Assembly: GCA_001871015.1 (NCBI GenBank)
Contig: MNUO01000025.1
Span: 1-15,487, forward strand
Direction of reading: 5' to 3'
DNA: 15,487 nt
Source of the DNA: Candidatus Desantisbacteria bacterium CG1_02_38_46
GTDB taxonomy: Bacteria; Desantisbacteria; UBA1551; UBA1559
The notes under the pieces were generated by a model. The model was not told where the DNA came from, searched no databases, and saw only the letters and a program-made list of their open reading frames with translations. Shown here one piece after another: positions 9,117 to 15,487 of the stretch. Within the stretch, counting starts at the first letter, position 1; each line of letters begins with the position of its first letter. A program made the position numbers and the translations under genes.

Positions 9117-9953
9117 TTAGAGATAATCTGCTAACACCCTTGCCACTCCTGCCTGGTTATTATCCCACTGGGCTACAATTTTCGCTGCCTTTTTTGATTT
9201 TTCTCCGGCATTTGCCATTGCTATTCCTATTCCTGCTGCAGAAAGCATCGGTGCATCATTATCCCCGTCGCCAAAAGCAATTATTTCATTAATATCGATT
9301 TTGTAATGCTCGGCGAGTTTTATCAGACCCACTCCTTTGTCAACATCCCTGTTCATAAATTCAAGATATTCAGGATTTGTCTTTGTTAATGTAACTTCCT
9401 TACCGAGAATAGAATAAAAATAATCATACTGTTCATCGCGGTATCGCGGCCTCGGGTTGGCAGGCTCTGAAGAATCTGTGATTAAAATCAATTTTGTCGG
9501 TTCTTTGCCCTTGAACTGACTTATATCAGAAACAAAATGAAAAACCGCACCGGTCTGATTTGCATAAATATCTGCATATTTACGAAGTGATTGGTCATCC
9601 TTGGCGTAGAGTACATCATTAAAATAATAATTGAGATGAAAATGATTTTTCAGGGTATAATCTATCATTTTATCGCCGTATTTCACCGGCAATGGCTTAT
9701 GAAAAATTATTTTTCTGCCTTCGGATTTTGTATCGCGCACCATCGCTCCATTATAAACAATGAGCGGGCAGTCAATACCTATCAAATCTGCGGTAGGCGC
9801 TACACAATCCGTCATTCTGCCCGATGAAAGGACAACGATTATCCCCTTTTTGTGGGATTCCTGCAGAATTATCTTGTTTTCCTCAGGGATTTTACCCTCG
9901 TTATCAAACAGGGTCCCATCCAAGTCAAGTGCTATCATTTTAATTCTGGACAT
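9117..9953 (-). CDS. HAD-superfamily phosphatase, Cof/YidA type (probable sugar phosphatase)
   Basis: A cytosolic phosphohydrolase of 278 residues. Motif I is DLDGT (nucleophile Asp10, acid/base Asp12), motif II the SSGRM region near residue 43, motif III Lys in EPTKLIL, motif IV GDGDND at 228-233. A C2-type cap lies between motifs II and III, as in Cof-like sugar phosphatases, which act on several sugar phosphates and pyridoxal phosphate. The gene starts eight bases after the MFS stop, and its AAGGA site overlaps that stop, so it is the third gene of the Gfo/Idh-MFS operon. Residues ~160-173 (SSEPANPRPRYRDE) form an unusual GC-rich, Pro/Arg-rich insert that may be another captured repeat. 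The specific substrate is unknown. Confidence 0.88.
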   Translation of the reverse strand: MSRIKMIALDLDGTLFDNEGKIPEENKIILQESHKKGIIVVLSSGRMTDCVAPTADLIGIDCPLIVYNGAMVRDTKSEGRKIIFHKPLPVKYGDKMIDYTLKNHFHLNYYFNDVLYAKDDQSLRKYADIYANQTGAVFHFVSDISQFKGKEPTKLILITDSSEPANPRPRYRDEQYDYFYSILGKEVTLTKTNPEYLEFMNRDVDKGVGLIKLAEHYKIDINEIIAFGDGDNDAPMLSAAGIGIAMANAGEKSKKAAKIVAQWDNNQAGVARVLADYL

Positions 9954-9961
9954 ATGAATCC

Positions 9962-11134
9962 TTAAAGTTCTTCGTCCTGATATTTTCGCATATTAAACAC
10001 AAGGACTGCGCATATTAAAAATAAAATTGCAAAGACGCCAAATCCAGCTGAATAATTTTTAGTGTAGGCATTCAGGTACATTCCGCTTAATATGGAAATT
10101 GCCACACCAAGGTCGCGCCACATATATATTGCACCGAACACGAGATGTCGCCGCTGGGAAGCGGCAGAATCGCCTATTACTGCCATTACGACTACAAGTA
10201 CTATTCCGGTTTGCAGGCCAAAAGTGGCTGCAGAAATAAATAACATCCACGGCGTGCGGACAAAAATTGCCAGCGCTACTCCAAGTGCTGAAAGCAAAAA
10301 TCCAAAAATTAAAATATTATACCTGCCGAACCTGTCAGACAGCCATCCCGAAAAAGAACTGGATACTAATCTTGTCATGTAAAATCCCTGCGTAATTATT
10401 CCTATAAGAGCAACACCGTAAAGACCTTTTATCAAATCACCGAAACTGCTCATCACGATACCAAAACCAAAAGAAGCGGTGAATTGTATAAAAGCCAGTA
10501 TCTTGCTCTTGTGACTTTTTAACACTCCGAACACTTTAAATACTGTTGAAGATTCCCGCTGGATATGGCGATTGGGAACACCTAACAGAATACAATTCCC
10601 TGCCAGAGTAATAAATATTACCCTTATCAGCATTCCATTGTTTCCATATCTTCCAGCCAACCATCCCAACAAAAATACGCCTATTGCCTGCCCAAGCAGT
10701 GACGAAGTGTAAAAAATCCCTGAACTGGTGCCGTATTTAGTCTTAGCACTTGAGTCTAAAATCTGAGTACTGGCTGAAATCCACATACTTGCTGCGCCCC
10801 ATCCCCAGATGATTGCCGCTATAATTAAAAATGAATAGCTGTTGGAAAAAAGTGCGCAGACCGCAAAAAAAGTGTAAGTAGTAGAACTCAATACAAGAGA
10901 CCAGTAATCTCCCAGCCACTTAAGTGTATAACCACACAAAATCCGCCAGAAAAGAAAAGATAAATAAAGTGTGGCGAGAATCCAGGAACATGCAAGTGCA
11001 CTGCGTCCCAGCTTCTCAGAAAGCACAGGAATAAGATATTGCTGAAAAGCTCCTGTCCCCATAAAAATAAAAAAGAAAGCAGCTGAAATTATCCACAGGT
11101 CTGATAATCCAATTTTTTTCCGGGAGTCATTCAT
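9962..11134 (-). CDS. Major facilitator superfamily transporter
   Basis: A polytopic inner-membrane protein of 390 residues with about twelve hydrophobic segments. SGWLSDRFGRYNILIFG between the two halves matches the MFS loop motif (G-x-x-x-D-R-x-G-R). It starts MNDSRKKIGLSDLWI; ATG 11134 is chosen because AAAAGGAT lies at suitable distance, whereas ATG 11152 directly abuts the stop of the preceding gene without a clear ribosome site. It lies between the Gfo/Idh oxidoreductase and the HAD phosphatase, so uptake or export of a sugar, sugar acid or related metabolite is likely. The sequence resembles oxalate/formate-type or monocarboxylate-type MFS proteins only loosely; substrate unassigned. 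Confidence 0.85.
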   Translation of the reverse strand: MNDSRKKIGLSDLWIISAAFFFIFMGTGAFQQYLIPVLSEKLGRSALACSWILATLYLSFLFWRILCGYTLKWLGDYWSLVLSSTTYTFFAVCALFSNSYSFLIIAAIIWGWGAASMWISASTQILDSSAKTKYGTSSGIFYTSSLLGQAIGVFLLGWLAGRYGNNGMLIRVIFITLAGNCILLGVPNRHIQRESSTVFKVFGVLKSHKSKILAFIQFTASFGFGIVMSSFGDLIKGLYGVALIGIITQGFYMTRLVSSSFSGWLSDRFGRYNILIFGFLLSALGVALAIFVRTPWMLFISAATFGLQTGIVLVVVMAVIGDSAASQRRHLVFGAIYMWRDLGVAISILSGMYLNAYTKNYSAGFGVFAILFLICAVLVFNMRKYQDEEL

Positions 11135-11152
11135 AAAATATCCTTTTTGCAT

Positions 11153-12106
11153 TCACATCTGTGAGTGATAAATTCTATCCACTAATTCCATTGTCTTAAC
11201 TGCATCTGAGAAATTTGTTATCGTCTGTTTGTTTTCTTTTACGCAATCAATAAAATGGCGGTTTTCGGCAAAAAATCCAGCTATTTTATAGAGTTCTGCA
11301 CTCTCTGCCGCATCTTTTGCCAGGGTCACCTCCCCTTCTTCTTTGTTGTCCTTATAAATTATTGATTTCACTTCCGGTTCCACAAAAGCAGAAATGCCTT
11401 TACCGTGCATTTCAATGCTAAATATGCGTTTTCCAACAATCCAGTTCGCCACAAGAAATCCTACTGCCCCGCTCTCAAATTTTACCATCGCATTAAAAAC
11501 ATTGTTATAAGTGGTATCAATGGCGCGCACATCGCTTACTACTTTTTTCACCTCCCCTCCCATCCAGCGAAGATTATCCACTGCATGTATTGCATCGCAG
11601 GTTAAAATATCGGTCGCTCCTGCATAGTATGGACCGCCGGAGTAATTTTTTACAAAAAAAGCAGTGCATTGCACCAAACCTCTCTCATCCACTTTTTTCT
11701 TTGCAGCCACACTTAAGGGTGAAAACCGGCGCTGAAAGCCAGTCATTGTCAGACATTTATTTTTTTCTGCTAAAAGAGCCATTTGCATGGTCTGCTCTGT
11801 ATTTATTCCGGGCGGCTTCTCAATAAACACATGCAATTTCTGATTCAGACAATGGATAACAAGGTCAAAAAGATGATGCGGGGGCATTAAAATATAAACT
11901 GCCTGCGGATTTGTCTCCTCCAGCATCTTTTTATAATTTGTAAATGTCTTCTCTATTTTAAATTTTTGAGCTGTTGCTTTTAATTTTTCTTCAATGACAT
12001 CACACAATCCAACAATTTCTACATCTCCAAACTCCACAAGCGAAGGATAATGAACCCTGTTCGCCATCCCTCCTGCTCCAATTAACGCCACTCTAATTTT
12101 ACTCAT
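11153..12106 (-). CDS. Gfo/Idh/MocA-family NAD(P)-dependent oxidoreductase
   Basis: The 317-residue protein starts MSKIRVALIGAGGMANRVHYP. The Rossmann loop G-x-G-G-M-A lies at 10-15, the family EKPP at 96-99, and GFQRRFSP at 123-130. CDAIHAVDNLRW at 170-181 holds the usual catalytic Asp/His region (His174). Relatives oxidise or reduce a sugar, inositol or sugar-acid hydroxyl with NAD(P). ATG 12106 is chosen: GGAGG lies ten bases upstream, and the earlier in-frame ATG at 12163 lies upstream of the promoter -10. It heads an operon with the MFS and HAD genes, under the promoter within repeat copy R1. Confidence 0.9.
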   Translation of the reverse strand: MSKIRVALIGAGGMANRVHYPSLVEFGDVEIVGLCDVIEEKLKATAQKFKIEKTFTNYKKMLEETNPQAVYILMPPHHLFDLVIHCLNQKLHVFIEKPPGINTEQTMQMALLAEKNKCLTMTGFQRRFSPLSVAAKKKVDERGLVQCTAFFVKNYSGGPYYAGATDILTCDAIHAVDNLRWMGGEVKKVVSDVRAIDTTYNNVFNAMVKFESGAVGFLVANWIVGKRIFSIEMHGKGISAFVEPEVKSIIYKDNKEEGEVTLAKDAAESAELYKIAGFFAENRHFIDCVKENKQTITNFSDAVKTMELVDRIYHSQM

Positions 12107-12124: not shown

Positions 12125-12245
12125 TTTAATAGCTAAGGAAATTATACCAAAAGTTATCCACAACCTTCAGGACTAAAGTCCTGAGTTACGGCAGGTCAGG
12201 ACTAAAGTCCTGAGTTACGTAACTCAGACCTTCAGGTCTGATTTT
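12125..12245. repeat. R1: direct repeat with palindrome array and promoter (copy 1)
   Basis: About 121 bp, nearly identical to 15374-15487 except for scattered substitutions and a ~7-base indel. Contents: a promoter part (see the separate entry), then TCAGGACTAAAGTCCTGA at 12167-12184 and again at 12196-12213, a perfect 18-bp palindrome CTGAGTTACGTAACTCAG at 12210-12227, and CAGACC-TTCA-GGTCTG at 12225-12240. The palindromes recall REP-type elements found widely in bacterial genomes. It fills the gap between the UroD-like gene stop and the Gfo/Idh operon. Confidence 0.85.
12141..12149 (-). promoter_or_regulatory. Extended -10 promoter of the Gfo/Idh-MFS-HAD operon
   Basis: On the minus strand TGGTATAAT is a perfect extended -10 element (TGnTATAAT). 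At the -35 position only TGAAGG is present, at the edge of the palindrome array. Predicted +1 near 12134 gives a leader of about 28 bases to the Gfo/Idh ATG. The same element recurs in R2. Confidence 0.7.
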
Positions 12246-12279: not shown

Positions 12280-13392
12280 TTATATATTTATTGGATATTT
12301 CCCGACTTCCCTCACATATTTCACCAGTTCAATTAAAGTTTCTGGAGAAACACCTGGATAGGTTTCACCTCCAATTGCAAATTCATAACCACCACCAGGA
12401 GCAGCAACCTTTATTGCATGCTTGATTTTTTCTTTTGTTTCATCGGTTAAACCCCGGTATAAATCTTTATTATTTAAACCTCCATGAATTACAACTTTTC
12501 CCTTCATATCCCTCACTGCTGCATCGATTGAACTGAATCCACCTATGTCCATAGATGTGAGTTTCAGGTCTTCTGCAAATGTTTTGAAATTGTGGTCATT
12601 AGGACCATCTGCATGAAGGTATCTCTCTTTTTTCCCATATCTTTCATAAATTGCTTTATCGAAAGGAAGGACCATCTCGCAATACATCTTATTTGAGACA
12701 AATGCAGAATTGTCATTTGCAAGTCCTATACTCTGCCTGTTTTTAATTCCAAATCTTTTATCCATATAATCAGTAATTTTAAAAAAAGCATCCAGCATTT
12801 TTTCGAGGAGGATTTTTACTACTTCCGGACTTGTATGCATCATTGTATAAACAGTAGTTGGCTCCATAATTGCGCAGGCTGCTGAAAGTGGTGGGTGAAT
12901 TCCAAAGCCAAAGCTGAATGGAAGTTTTACCCCTTTCTTTTCCAGAATTTTTTTCGTTTTTGTTGCTTCGGCAAAAACATATTGAATTCCTGGGTTAGTC
13001 GCCGGGTCAGGAACTTTCAGTTTCATTATGTCATTCTCATCTTTCAGTATGGGGACAACCCTGGGTGAGGTATCATCTGGATATTCAATAGGACAATTAA
13101 AAAATAAACCCTCGCCAACAGGACCCAAATCCAGTGTGATGCCGTAATCAGTACGGTCATCTTTCAGATATTCAAATCTCCACGGAATGTATTTTAAAAA
13201 TACATCCACCATTACTTCTCTGTCTGTGTAGTAATCTTTAATATTATAACCGAACATCGTGGAATAATAGCTTCCATACGCGCTGATGTTTATCGGCACA
13301 AAATCTGGCTCTTTGAAGGAAAATGCAATTTTCTTCCTTTTTTCAGACTCTTCAATCTGGATTTTATATTTTTTGGGATTAAAAATTTCCAT
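12280..13392 (-). CDS. UroD-like (uroporphyrinogen decarboxylase family) protein A, reaction unknown
   Basis: The 370 residues align by pattern with the UroD/cobalamin-dependent methyltransferase-activase TIM-barrel superfamily: FKEPDFVPINIS at the first strand, LGPVGEGL, and KERYLHADGPNDHNFKTF followed by LTSMDIGGFS and GKVVIHGGLNN. Heme UroD's N-terminal FRQAGR-type arginine signature is missing, and the MtaA/CmuA zinc pattern HxC is replaced by HAD at 260-262, so neither heme synthesis nor zinc-dependent methyl transfer can be assumed. The gene overlaps the preceding UroD-like gene by 14 bases, with AGG before its ATG, implying coupled production and perhaps a heteromer. Context is sugar catabolism. 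The fold call is firm; the function is open. Confidence 0.8.
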   Translation of the reverse strand: MEIFNPKKYKIQIEESEKRKKIAFSFKEPDFVPINISAYGSYYSTMFGYNIKDYYTDREVMVDVFLKYIPWRFEYLKDDRTDYGITLDLGPVGEGLFFNCPIEYPDDTSPRVVPILKDENDIMKLKVPDPATNPGIQYVFAEATKTKKILEKKGVKLPFSFGFGIHPPLSAACAIMEPTTVYTMMHTSPEVVKILLEKMLDAFFKITDYMDKRFGIKNRQSIGLANDNSAFVSNKMYCEMVLPFDKAIYERYGKKERYLHADGPNDHNFKTFAEDLKLTSMDIGGFSSIDAAVRDMKGKVVIHGGLNNKDLYRGLTDETKEKIKHAIKVAAPGGGYEFAIGGETYPGVSPETLIELVKYVREVGKYPINI

Positions 13393-14452
13393 ATTTTCCT
13401 ATCTCCCTCGCGGTCTCAACTGCAAATTTATAATTCTGGAAACTCACTGACGGCGGCACTGAATGGTCACTATGAAATATATAGCCACCTCTTTCTTTTG
13501 CTATGGATACTTTACTCTCTACTTCTTCACGAATCTTCTCCTTATCTAAACTTAAGATATCTGCTGAAATGTTGCCGAAAAAAGTTATTTTGTTGTCATA
13601 TTGCTTTTTGTAAATTCGGACATCATTTCCTGCTCTCGCTTCCAGTGGCTGAATAGCATCAACGCCAACTTCTATTAGAAGCGGCAAAAATTCTTTCACA
13701 TTTCCATCACAATGGTAAATCAGAAAAAGCCTCTGCTCCCTGCAGAACTGCTTTATGCGCACAAGACTGGGCATAACGAGAGCCCTGTAAGTTCTGGGCG
13801 AAAAAAGCATTCCGTTCTTATAGCAGAGGTCGCTGGAAAGCCATATAGCGTCGGGTTTCATTCCTTCCTTGATGCAAATTTCACACATCTTAAGTATAAA
13901 TCCTGTATGCGTATCAATCATATCCTTTATTAAATCCGGTTCTTCCACCATCTTTGGTAATCCTGATTCAAATCCCATTGTACGTTCTAAAACAAACCAG
14001 CAGGGTTCATCTGGACTTAAATAAACAAAATCTCTTCTTTTGCGAAGGTTTTCATAAGTTGTTTTCATTTCTTTGGGAATTCTTTCTTTTGTAGGCACAA
14101 GTTTTTGTTTTAATTCCTCCCAATCTTTTTTCTCCTTCAGAATATGGTCAACCTGATTAGGAGGACTGTAGGTTTCACCTTTCCATACTTTTAAAGTTCT
14201 TCCATAACCATCGGTTTCTATCCTATATTCAGTAGTATCTTCCAACACTTTAACCGGCAATTGAAATGTTCCGTCAAAAGAAATTCCGCTGATGTGGTCC
14301 ATTTCAAAATAATCAAGTGGGGCAATGTCTTCTGGCAAACCTTCTTTTTTCCAGCGTTCAACTGTCTGGGGCCAGAAACATATTTCGCAAAGAGGAACCC
14401 TGTCAGGAATTTCTCCTGCCAGCACTTTGCTTATTCTTTCCTGCGAAGTCAT
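13379..14452 (-). CDS. UroD-like (uroporphyrinogen decarboxylase family) protein B, reaction unknown
   Basis: The 357-residue protein begins MTSQERISKVLAGEIPDRVPL, the usual opening of UroD-family proteins (E-R-x-x-x-x-L-x-G-x-x-P-D-R-V-P). ATG 14452 is chosen for the AAGGAG just upstream; the open frame extends 28 codons further but runs into the isomerase gene. Other signatures are SSDLCYKNGMLFSP at 206-219, YHCDGN at 246-251, VDAIQPLE at 264-271, and HSDHSVPPSV at 327-336. HCDG replaces the HxCG zinc motif of MtaA-type methyltransferases (His present, second ligand Asp), and the downstream zinc cysteine is not evident. It is the second gene of the isomerase-UroD-UroD operon, a context I recall from planctomycete and lentisphaeral genomes. 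Confidence 0.82.
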   Translation of the reverse strand: MTSQERISKVLAGEIPDRVPLCEICFWPQTVERWKKEGLPEDIAPLDYFEMDHISGISFDGTFQLPVKVLEDTTEYRIETDGYGRTLKVWKGETYSPPNQVDHILKEKKDWEELKQKLVPTKERIPKEMKTTYENLRKRRDFVYLSPDEPCWFVLERTMGFESGLPKMVEEPDLIKDMIDTHTGFILKMCEICIKEGMKPDAIWLSSDLCYKNGMLFSPRTYRALVMPSLVRIKQFCREQRLFLIYHCDGNVKEFLPLLIEVGVDAIQPLEARAGNDVRIYKKQYDNKITFFGNISADILSLDKEKIREEVESKVSIAKERGGYIFHSDHSVPPSVSFQNYKFAVETAREIGKYGNF

Positions 14453-14477: not shown

Positions 14478-15293
14478 CTATAAAATTTTACGCAGGAAAG
14501 TAAGGTCTTTTTTTGTCTGTTCCACAACCTGTTCAACAGGCAACTGGTATTCGCTATGCATAGAAAGTGGCCCGTTGAAATTAAGAGTTTTCAAGAAATC
14601 TGAAAATTCTTTCCAGTTCACCAATCCTTCTCCCAGAGGTACTACCTGTGTTTTCCAGGGCCATTTCGACGATGGGTCAACATCCTTGATACGGGCAAAA
14701 CTAAGGTCTTTAACAGCAACCATAAAAAGTCTATTAGAGATATAATCTAAATTCATCTTCCATCCCGAGTATCCTCCTTCAATGGCTGCATGCCCTATAT
14801 CATAATAAGCACCCACCCACTCGGGAGAACAATTCTCAAGAAGGTCAATCAAATGCGGTAAGGAAGCGCCGAGGCAATTCCCGGAATGATTATGATAACC
14901 TGCTTTTATTTTCTTCTCCTCGCAAAATTTAGCGATATCTTTCAATTTCGCATTTGCTTCCCTTAACAATTTTCTTAAACTTCCAAACTCCTGATATGCA
15001 TAATATCCCAACTTGAAATAACCGATTCCTAAATTTGAAGCTGCGCCCAGAACATCTTTTGCGTATAGTTGATTTATATCAGTAATCTCAGTAGTAATCA
15101 TTGTGATTTTTACCCCTTCCCGCAAAAGAGCTTCTTTAGCTATGGGAAGTTTTTCCTTCACTTCTGCCGGCTCTACATGCCCGCCCTTCCTTACAGTAAG
15201 ATCTACGCCTTCAATTCCAATTGATTTCAAAGCTTTACCTAAATTTTGGTAATCTGATTCCTGTAAATGCTTACTAAAAACACACAGTTCCAT
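14478..15293 (-). CDS. Sugar phosphate isomerase/epimerase-like TIM-barrel protein (AP endonuclease family 2)
   Basis: The 271-residue protein belongs to the xylose-isomerase-like TIM barrel group, whose members include keto-sugar epimerases, inosose dehydratases and hydroxypyruvate isomerase. Candidate metal ligands and active-site residues are seen in AGYHNHSGN at 131-139, YDIGH at 164-168, VAVKDL at 192-197, LGEG at 220-223 and HSEY at 246-249. No signal peptide is present, so it is cytosolic. AAAGGAGG precedes the ATG. It is the first gene after the R2 promoter, with a leader of about 90 bases, and leads into the two UroD-like genes. The exact substrate cannot be read from sequence alone. 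Confidence 0.87.
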   Translation of the reverse strand: MELCVFSKHLQESDYQNLGKALKSIGIEGVDLTVRKGGHVEPAEVKEKLPIAKEALLREGVKITMITTEITDINQLYAKDVLGAASNLGIGYFKLGYYAYQEFGSLRKLLREANAKLKDIAKFCEEKKIKAGYHNHSGNCLGASLPHLIDLLENCSPEWVGAYYDIGHAAIEGGYSGWKMNLDYISNRLFMVAVKDLSFARIKDVDPSSKWPWKTQVVPLGEGLVNWKEFSDFLKTLNFNGPLSMHSEYQLPVEQVVEQTKKDLTFLRKIL

Positions 15294-15373: not shown

Positions 15374-15487
15374 TTTAATAGCTAAGGAAATTATACCAGA
15401 AGTTATCCACAACCTTCAGGACTAAAGTCCTGAGGTACAGCATGTCAGGGCTAAAGCCCTGAGCTACGGACCTTCAGGTCTGATTTT
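15374..15487. repeat. R2: direct repeat with palindrome array and promoter (copy 2, cut by window end)
   Basis: Second copy of the R1 unit, same orientation, 3.25 kb away. It contains TCAGGACTAAAGTCCTGA at 15416-15433 and TCAGGGCTAAAGCCCTGA at 15445-15462; compared with R1 the second palindrome has A-to-G and T-to-C changes at paired positions, keeping the stem. A GACC-TTCA-GGTC hairpin lies at 15469-15480. It lacks most of the TAACTCAG half-palindrome of R1. The unit may continue beyond the window. Confidence 0.85.
15390..15398 (-). promoter_or_regulatory. Extended -10 promoter of the isomerase-UroD-UroD operon
   Basis: TGGTATAAT on the minus strand, identical to the element in R1, with no good -35 hexamer. 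Predicted +1 near 15383. Sharing the whole promoter segment with the Gfo/Idh operon implies matched basal expression and possibly shared regulation through the adjoining palindromes. Confidence 0.65.

Follow-up and report, generated by a model that had tools for sequence, protein, structure and literature searches.

Protein B, one of two divergent UroD-like proteins encoded by overlapping genes in the uncultured anaerobe Candidatus Desantisbacteria bacterium CG1_02_38_46, is most likely a corrinoid-dependent methyltransferase that acts on an O-methylated polyol or sugar and is served by a corrinoid protein in trans. The case for its neighbour, protein A, is weaker. To the explanation as a whole, i.e. 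methyl transfer by B, the corrinoid protein of contig C5 as its partner, a sugar or polyol ether as substrate, and A as a distant member of the UroD family, we give an even chance. The term window is used for the whole stretch of 15,487 nucleotides that was analysed (MNUO01000025.1; contig C65). The host assembly (G000) is a draft of 1.73 Mb with a completeness of 88%; G001 denotes a genome of the same order that is 93% complete.

Gene layout of the window and the A-B pair

On the minus strand of the window, genes for a TIM-barrel protein of the AP_endonuc_2 (xylose-isomerase-like) family (14478..15293; Pfam PF01261, 5.3e-22), for B (357 amino acids; 13379..14452; Pfam URO-D, 5.1e-22, 78.8 bits) and for A (370 amino acids; 12280..13392; Pfam URO-D, 1.8e-24, 86.9 bits) form a TIM-B-A unit, the cut-off of the URO-D model being 23.9 bits. 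The TIM-barrel gene is the first of the unit and lies 25 bp upstream of B, whose ATG is preceded by a GGAG that resembles a ribosome-binding site. The reading frames of A and B are intact and share 14 bases, and the two proteins are 22% identical across 194 residues. The first-pass annotation had described two divergent UroD-family genes with a 14-base overlap downstream of a TIM-barrel gene, and all of this was confirmed.

Further genes of the minus strand encode a Gfo/Idh/MocA dehydrogenase (11153..12106; Pfam PF01408, 2.2e-23), an MFS transporter (9962..11137, start codon assumed; PF07690, 6.6e-36) and a Cof-type HAD-IIB phosphatase (9117..9953; PF08282, 6.8e-59; TIGR00099 above cut-off); ABC transporter genes also belong to this group. 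It is separated from the TIM-B-A unit by about 170 bp with a promoter-like repeat (12137..12213, minus strand) that comprises the palindromes TCAGGACTTTAGTCCTGA and GGTTGTGGATAACTTYTGGTATAATTTCC and stands ahead of the Gfo/Idh gene. A second copy of the repeat (15386..15462, minus strand) is located ahead of the TIM-B-A unit; both copies combine a palindrome with a promoter-like 29-mer. Such palindromes would not be expected by chance. Because of the gap and the repeat within it, TIM-B-A and Gfo/Idh-MFS-HAD-ABC may represent two transcription units. A promoter-like 29-mer identical to that of the window is present at 2496-2524 of locus L212 (contig C17). The window also includes a gene pair at 400-1843, the first member of which (1193-1843) is AbiEi-antitoxin-like with a score below the cut-off; its partner is AbiEii-like in look and has no NCBIfam match.

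The designation of the gene cluster as a sugar-catabolic operon was borne out in part. The best NCBIfam match of the TIM barrel is iolE (38 of 290 bits) and that of the Gfo/Idh protein is IolG-like, which speaks for it; both matches are far below the cut-off, however, and the ABC substrate-binding protein encoded in the window is of the SBP_bac_6 / 2-aminoethylphosphonate-like kind.

Orthologues of A (53–54% identity) were detected in only one other genus (3/3 genomes). A, a distant UroD, is so far represented in two lineages. In the contexts examined, all from that genus, none of them has a B-type partner. At three loci (L102, 10135-12896; L286; L287) we observed a conserved trio of a HAD phosphatase, the A orthologue and a beta-keto acid cleavage enzyme (BKACE). 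The 75% orthologue of B (G001, contig C43) is preceded by a different UroD of 412 amino acids and has retained a Gfo/Idh gene downstream that is an orthologue of the one in the window (phmmer, 1.8e-175). The idea of A and B as a conserved pair was dropped because their orthologues are unpaired and the partners of B differ. A and B co-occur in none of the other orthologue contexts examined, and we regard the pair as a local combination and not as a conserved system. Adjacency of UroD genes as such exceeds chance: four adjoining pairs are present in G000 as compared with 0.43 expected (P about 0.0008), and UroDs account for 21/369 near B relatives versus 4/307 (p 0.0017, among the matches listed).

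Family, fold and candidate metal ligands

A and B are neither uroporphyrinogen decarboxylases (HemE) nor classical coenzyme M methyltransferases, a conclusion that is supported by several lines of evidence. A pattern search found neither of the HemE signatures (P-x-W-x-M-R-Q-A-G-R; G-F-x-x-x-P-[FYW]-T...) in A or B, in agreement with the first-pass annotation, and A and B score 20.6 and 22.7 bits, respectively, against the HemE equivalog model TIGR01464, the cut-off of which is 302.95 bits. Scores of 20–59 bits were obtained with the NCBIfam models for MtaA, MtbA and mtaA_cmuA (cut-offs 235–600). Moreover, the His-x-Cys...Cys zinc ligands of MtaA and MtbA are found neither in A, which has H-A-D and E343, nor in B, which has H-C-D and D329/H330.

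The predicted structure of B (AF2, pLDDT 95.4) resembles HemE (VIA Z 25–27) and, slightly less well, MtaA (4ay7; Z 24.3) over the whole length, and B thus has the UroD/MtaA fold of the corrinoid O-demethylases. CdmB was absent among the fold matches listed, which is evidence neither for nor against a relationship. In a comparison of sequence profiles with the PDB, the top match of B was likewise MtaA 4ay7 (E 3.6e-4), and that to CdmB was not significant (E 0.82). A phmmer search of the PDB gave no match for B and HemE alone for A (E 0.22). The model of A is weak (pLDDT 68, from 14 rows) and too poor for site analysis. In the UroD tree, B falls inside a well supported clade of 24 rows, and A sits on a long isolated branch, apparently in another deep part. 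No relatives of A were retrieved in the single-protein scan of the genome contigs.

In B, H247-C248-D249 (13706..13714, minus strand) takes the place of the zinc-binding His-x-Cys of MtaA; the profile alignment to 4ay7 sets it on LHICGNV. Where MtaA has the downstream Cys, B has D329-H330 (13463..13468, minus strand) as a candidate third ligand. H247, D329 and H330 are invariant in an alignment with 26 relatives. In the model, H247 is located at a strand end and D329/H330 just after a beta strand, as expected for ligands at the mouth of the barrel. H247, D249 and D329/H330 are thus candidates for a metal or acid site. The corresponding residues of A are H260-A261-D262 (12607..12615, minus strand), with HADGPND being invariant in four orthologues, and the candidate third ligand E343 (12364..12366, minus strand) within GGETY, which is invariant in the same number of orthologues.

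That both proteins carry H-x-D and that the zinc Cys is not evident downstream had been read correctly from the sequence. The further notion that such a motif speaks against corrinoid methyl transfer was not supported, and the motif is not unusual. Among 74 UroD-like proteins, 29 have H-x-D and 28 H-x-C at the aligned position, and each motif occurs in eight UroDs of G000. Relatives that share 34% identity or more with B are about evenly divided (43 H-x-D versus 44 H-x-C); of those with at least 42% identity, 22 have H-x-D and one has H-x-C. We therefore abandoned H-x-D as the mark of a new enzyme class, H-x-C being equally common, the B clade included. O-methyltransferases of the UroD superfamily carry Asp or Glu in place of Cys ligands (PMC10418091), and zinc is absent from some O-demethylases and from the dehalogenase CdmB (PMC13222342). 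Given such carboxylate ligands, the presence of D329/H330 and E343 in B and A, and zinc-free members of the group, H-x-D is no argument against methyl transfer. In addition, UroDs with H-x-D are direct neighbours of corrinoid proteins, RACE and MtaB, as described in the following section.

Corrinoid genes beside relatives of B and in the host genome

The best case of linkage between a relative of B and corrinoid genes is locus L183 of Chloroflexi. There, all genes have the same orientation: NanE and ROK genes come first, then those for a UroD of the B clade (HTDG), a corrinoid protein, RACE and an MTHFR homologue, and after these another UroD gene and a pair of Gfo/Idh genes. In four loci of Armatimonadota (L134, L135, L138, L140), B orthologues with HCDG (48–49% identity) come directly after MtaB, which matches PF12176 with 8e-168 and 1e-167 in the two loci scanned. 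The MtaB gene and the B-type UroD gene overlap in L134 and in L140 (8613-11068 in either locus). Other arrangements are UroD, MtaB, UroD (HTDG), UroD, corrinoid protein and homocysteine S-methyltransferase (L200); corrinoid protein, RACE, two UroDs and homocysteine S-methyltransferase (L192); a corrinoid protein followed by a UroD with HSDG (G033, contig C90); a UroD with HSDG adjoining RACE (G059, G068, G070); Gfo/Idh and RACE with two UroDs (G028, contig C61); and an ABC transporter, two UroDs and a corrinoid protein (G046, contig C15). Loci of this kind are few of many, yet they come from several phyla; corrinoid neighbours were detected for just a few of 80 B relatives. For A, no link to corrinoid genes was seen in the contexts examined.

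At the level of genomes, RACE is encoded in 11/11 genomes with at least five UroD matches versus 11/48 others (Fisher p 2.5e-6), and a stand-alone corrinoid protein in 10/11 versus 8/48 (p 6.5e-6), an association across 59 genomes that are not independent and in which it is confounded by kinship and a common anaerobic life style. Genomes with a B orthologue have RACE in 18/18 and a stand-alone corrinoid protein in 13/18 cases. The clearest exception is G001, in which a stand-alone corrinoid protein was not detected next to 28 UroDs in spite of 93% completeness.

The statement of the first-pass annotation that no corrinoid protein is nearby is true of the window, which contains no corrinoid protein gene, but not of the genome. 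Contig C5 (L211, 468-1214) encodes a stand-alone corrinoid protein (B12-binding, 4.7e-28; B12-binding_2, 7.1e-21), and RACE-type activators are encoded on C17, C33 and C89. C17 harbours RACE (RACo_C_ter, 4.2e-103) together with a pterin-binding methyltransferase (2.6e-27). Corrinoid protein, activator and methyltransferase II are thus all encoded in G000 outside the window, and CODH/ACS subunits are present on the background contigs scanned. By contrast with this single stand-alone corrinoid protein, G000 has 26 URO-D matches (loci including L087-L101), an unusual ratio; six other sampled genomes have 20–28 such matches. MtaB was considered as a partner in G000 and rejected, the one match being weak and below the cut-off (E 2.1e-4).

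Several gene arrangements around these loci were recorded in passing. The corrinoid protein gene of C5 adjoins genes that look phosphofructokinase- and aldolase-like by eye. On C17 (L212, 39-4627), RACE, a gene that by eye is hexulose-6-phosphate-synthase-like and the pterin-binding methyltransferase are clustered. On C89 (L213, 3788-8552), two AP_endonuc_2 genes and one Gfo/Idh gene are followed by RACE, and a similar, partly conserved RACE cluster with one AP_endonuc_2 gene and with Gfo/Idh is found in G001 (contig C35; L220, 6567-11470). On C79 (L087, 1236-2723), a gene for an MttB-family methyltransferase (PF06253, 8e-38) adjoins a UroD gene.

Proposed function and alternative readings

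We propose that B functions as a UroD-fold methyltransferase I that would bind an O-methylated polyol or sugar at H247, D249 and D329/H330 and hand the methyl group to Co(I) of the C5 corrinoid protein. The latter would be reactivated by the RACE proteins of C17, C33 and C89, and the pterin-binding protein of C17 would move the methyl group to tetrahydrofolate, from where it could enter the Wood-Ljungdahl pathway. Further conversion of the demethylated polyol may be the task of the Gfo/Idh dehydrogenase and of the TIM barrel, which is isomerase-like. A probably takes the same or a related substrate and may, e.g., attack it at another position.

A methylated cyclitol or sugar is a reasonable guess for the substrate, which is drawn from gene neighbourhood alone, namely the AP_endonuc_2, Gfo/Idh and fucosidase neighbours of UroDs and the IolE- and IolG-like matches in the window. 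The 98 genes within 4 kb of G000 UroDs include nine for AP_endonuc_2, the commonest neighbour family, five each for Gfo/Idh and GHL6, and three for alpha-L-fucosidase, counts that are partial and refer to the matches listed. None of these families is among the 25 commonest of 87 background genes, which were taken from contigs without UroD and are not a random sample. Next to B relatives, neither Gfo/Idh (6/369 versus 3/307, p 0.35) nor AP_endonuc_2 is enriched among the matches listed, and the idea that the B family generally partners with them was dropped. On C83 (L090, 3652-12090), a UroD pair is found among genes for two fucosidase-like proteins, a sugar kinase and fucose isomerase; in the second member of the pair, C-x-D stands where others have H-x-D. 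These neighbourhoods support the view that UroD-like genes recur in carbohydrate settings as a group to which no function has been assigned.

Among known systems, the corrinoid O-demethylases and dehalogenases MtvB, OdmB, VdmB, MtoB and CdmB share with B the UroD fold and, going by the candidate ligands in its sequence, a carboxylate in place of Cys, and their corrinoid protein, RACE and H4folate-type methyltransferase have counterparts that are encoded in G000 and clustered in B relatives. Unlike them, B lies in an operon with carbohydrate neighbours and without a corrinoid protein, and its match to the CdmB profile is insignificant (see above). Since B has no linked corrinoid protein and its sequence is distant from the named references, we did not file it in a named family. 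The methylcobamide:coenzyme M methyltransferases MtaA and MtbA have the same fold, and their H-x-C aligns with H-x-D, but their His-Cys-Cys zinc site is replaced in A and B. HemE shares the fold of B and differs in its signatures and scores (about 21–23 bits versus 303). Type 1 mlp clusters (Kountz and Balskus, PMC10418091) likewise combine several UroD homologues with a corrinoid protein and RACE; there, the site is His-Cys-Cys and the link is to sulfur or selenium compounds, whereas the UroDs described here have H-x-D, are linked to carbohydrate genes, and their corrinoid protein is unlinked.

It strikes us as rather unlikely that A and B work without a corrinoid, as lyases, decarboxylases or isomerases for a step in sugar-acid or keto-sugar metabolism, with H-x-D engaged in acid/base or metal chemistry. 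Enzymes of this type would be in line with 26 UroD matches per stand-alone corrinoid protein in G000 and 28 UroDs in G001, where none was detected, with some G000 paralogues being devoid of the His (CxD, TxD, LxD), with the location of A orthologues beside BKACE and a HAD phosphatase, and with the frequency of AP_endonuc_2 next to G000 UroDs (9/98; outside the top 25 of the 87 background genes). They are hard to reconcile with the finding that, in several phyla, the B clade and other H-x-D relatives are in direct linkage with MtaB, corrinoid proteins and RACE. No positive support was obtained for the decarboxylase or lyase role which the first-pass annotation had thought conceivable, and we know of no UroD-family carbohydrate lyase.

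If B transfers methyl groups to a corrinoid, the donor could also be a methoxylated aromatic compound, methanol, a methylated amine or thioether, or a haloalkane, the sugar genes being bystanders. Known methyltransferases of the UroD superfamily use such substrates (PMC13222342, PMC10418091), B orthologues overlap with MtaB, a methanol methyltransferase homologue, and the ABC binding protein differs from the classical sugar type. We nevertheless consider a non-sugar donor unlikely because B and Gfo/Idh are kept together in G001, because in L183 the UroD is joined by NanE, ROK and Gfo/Idh as well as by a corrinoid protein and RACE, and because other UroDs of G000 are located beside fucosidases, fucose isomerase and AP_endonuc_2. 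The overlap of 14 bases and the excess of adjoining UroDs, both in G000 and near B relatives, might be taken to mean that the pair itself is the functional unit, either as an A-B heterodimer or as a methyltransferase I / II pair. With the orthologues of A and B unpaired elsewhere in the contexts examined and the partners of B differing, this is very improbable.

Methyl transfer by B with a corrinoid protein in trans may be one instance of a wider pattern. The stand-alone corrinoid proteins of the sampled genomes are of one type with a median pairwise identity of 60% across phyla, as compared with 28–37% between MetH domains and the C5 protein; RACE proteins are mostly 30–47% identical to those of G000, and the median identity of UroDs within G000 is 24%. 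Linkage of the corrinoid gene varies: its partner is UroD in part of the genomes and RACE or Gfo/Idh in another part, and in G000 it is unlinked. These identities would fit one slowly evolving carrier and many fast-diverging UroD partners. As a tentative extension, which we consider possible but clearly short of probable, one conserved corrinoid protein together with RACE and methyltransferase II could form a hub that serves 20–28 divergent UroDs. Every one of these UroDs would belong to a separate glycan or polyol locus and act specifically on a single methylated sugar or cyclitol; in this way, anaerobes from several phyla that are little known would strip methyl decorations and feed them into the Wood-Ljungdahl pathway.

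Ordinary sugar enzymes are blocked by the O-methyl groups that sugars and cyclitols of plants, algae and microbes can carry, and an oxygen-dependent (P450) route for the removal of sugar O-methyl groups exists. In a literature search that covered little of the subscription journals, we found neither an anaerobic counterpart of this route nor a report of sugar O-demethylation by UroD proteins. If true, the proposed role of B would carry a known enzyme class over to carbohydrates. The more interesting part, and one worth testing, is the wider pattern of one corrinoid protein and 20–28 UroDs per genome in several phyla. Should these UroDs be sugar O-demethylases, a large unassigned enzyme expansion would gain a testable function, many annotations as 'uroporphyrinogen decarboxylase' in such genomes would be wrong, and glycan breakdown would be tied to one-carbon metabolism in anoxic habitats.
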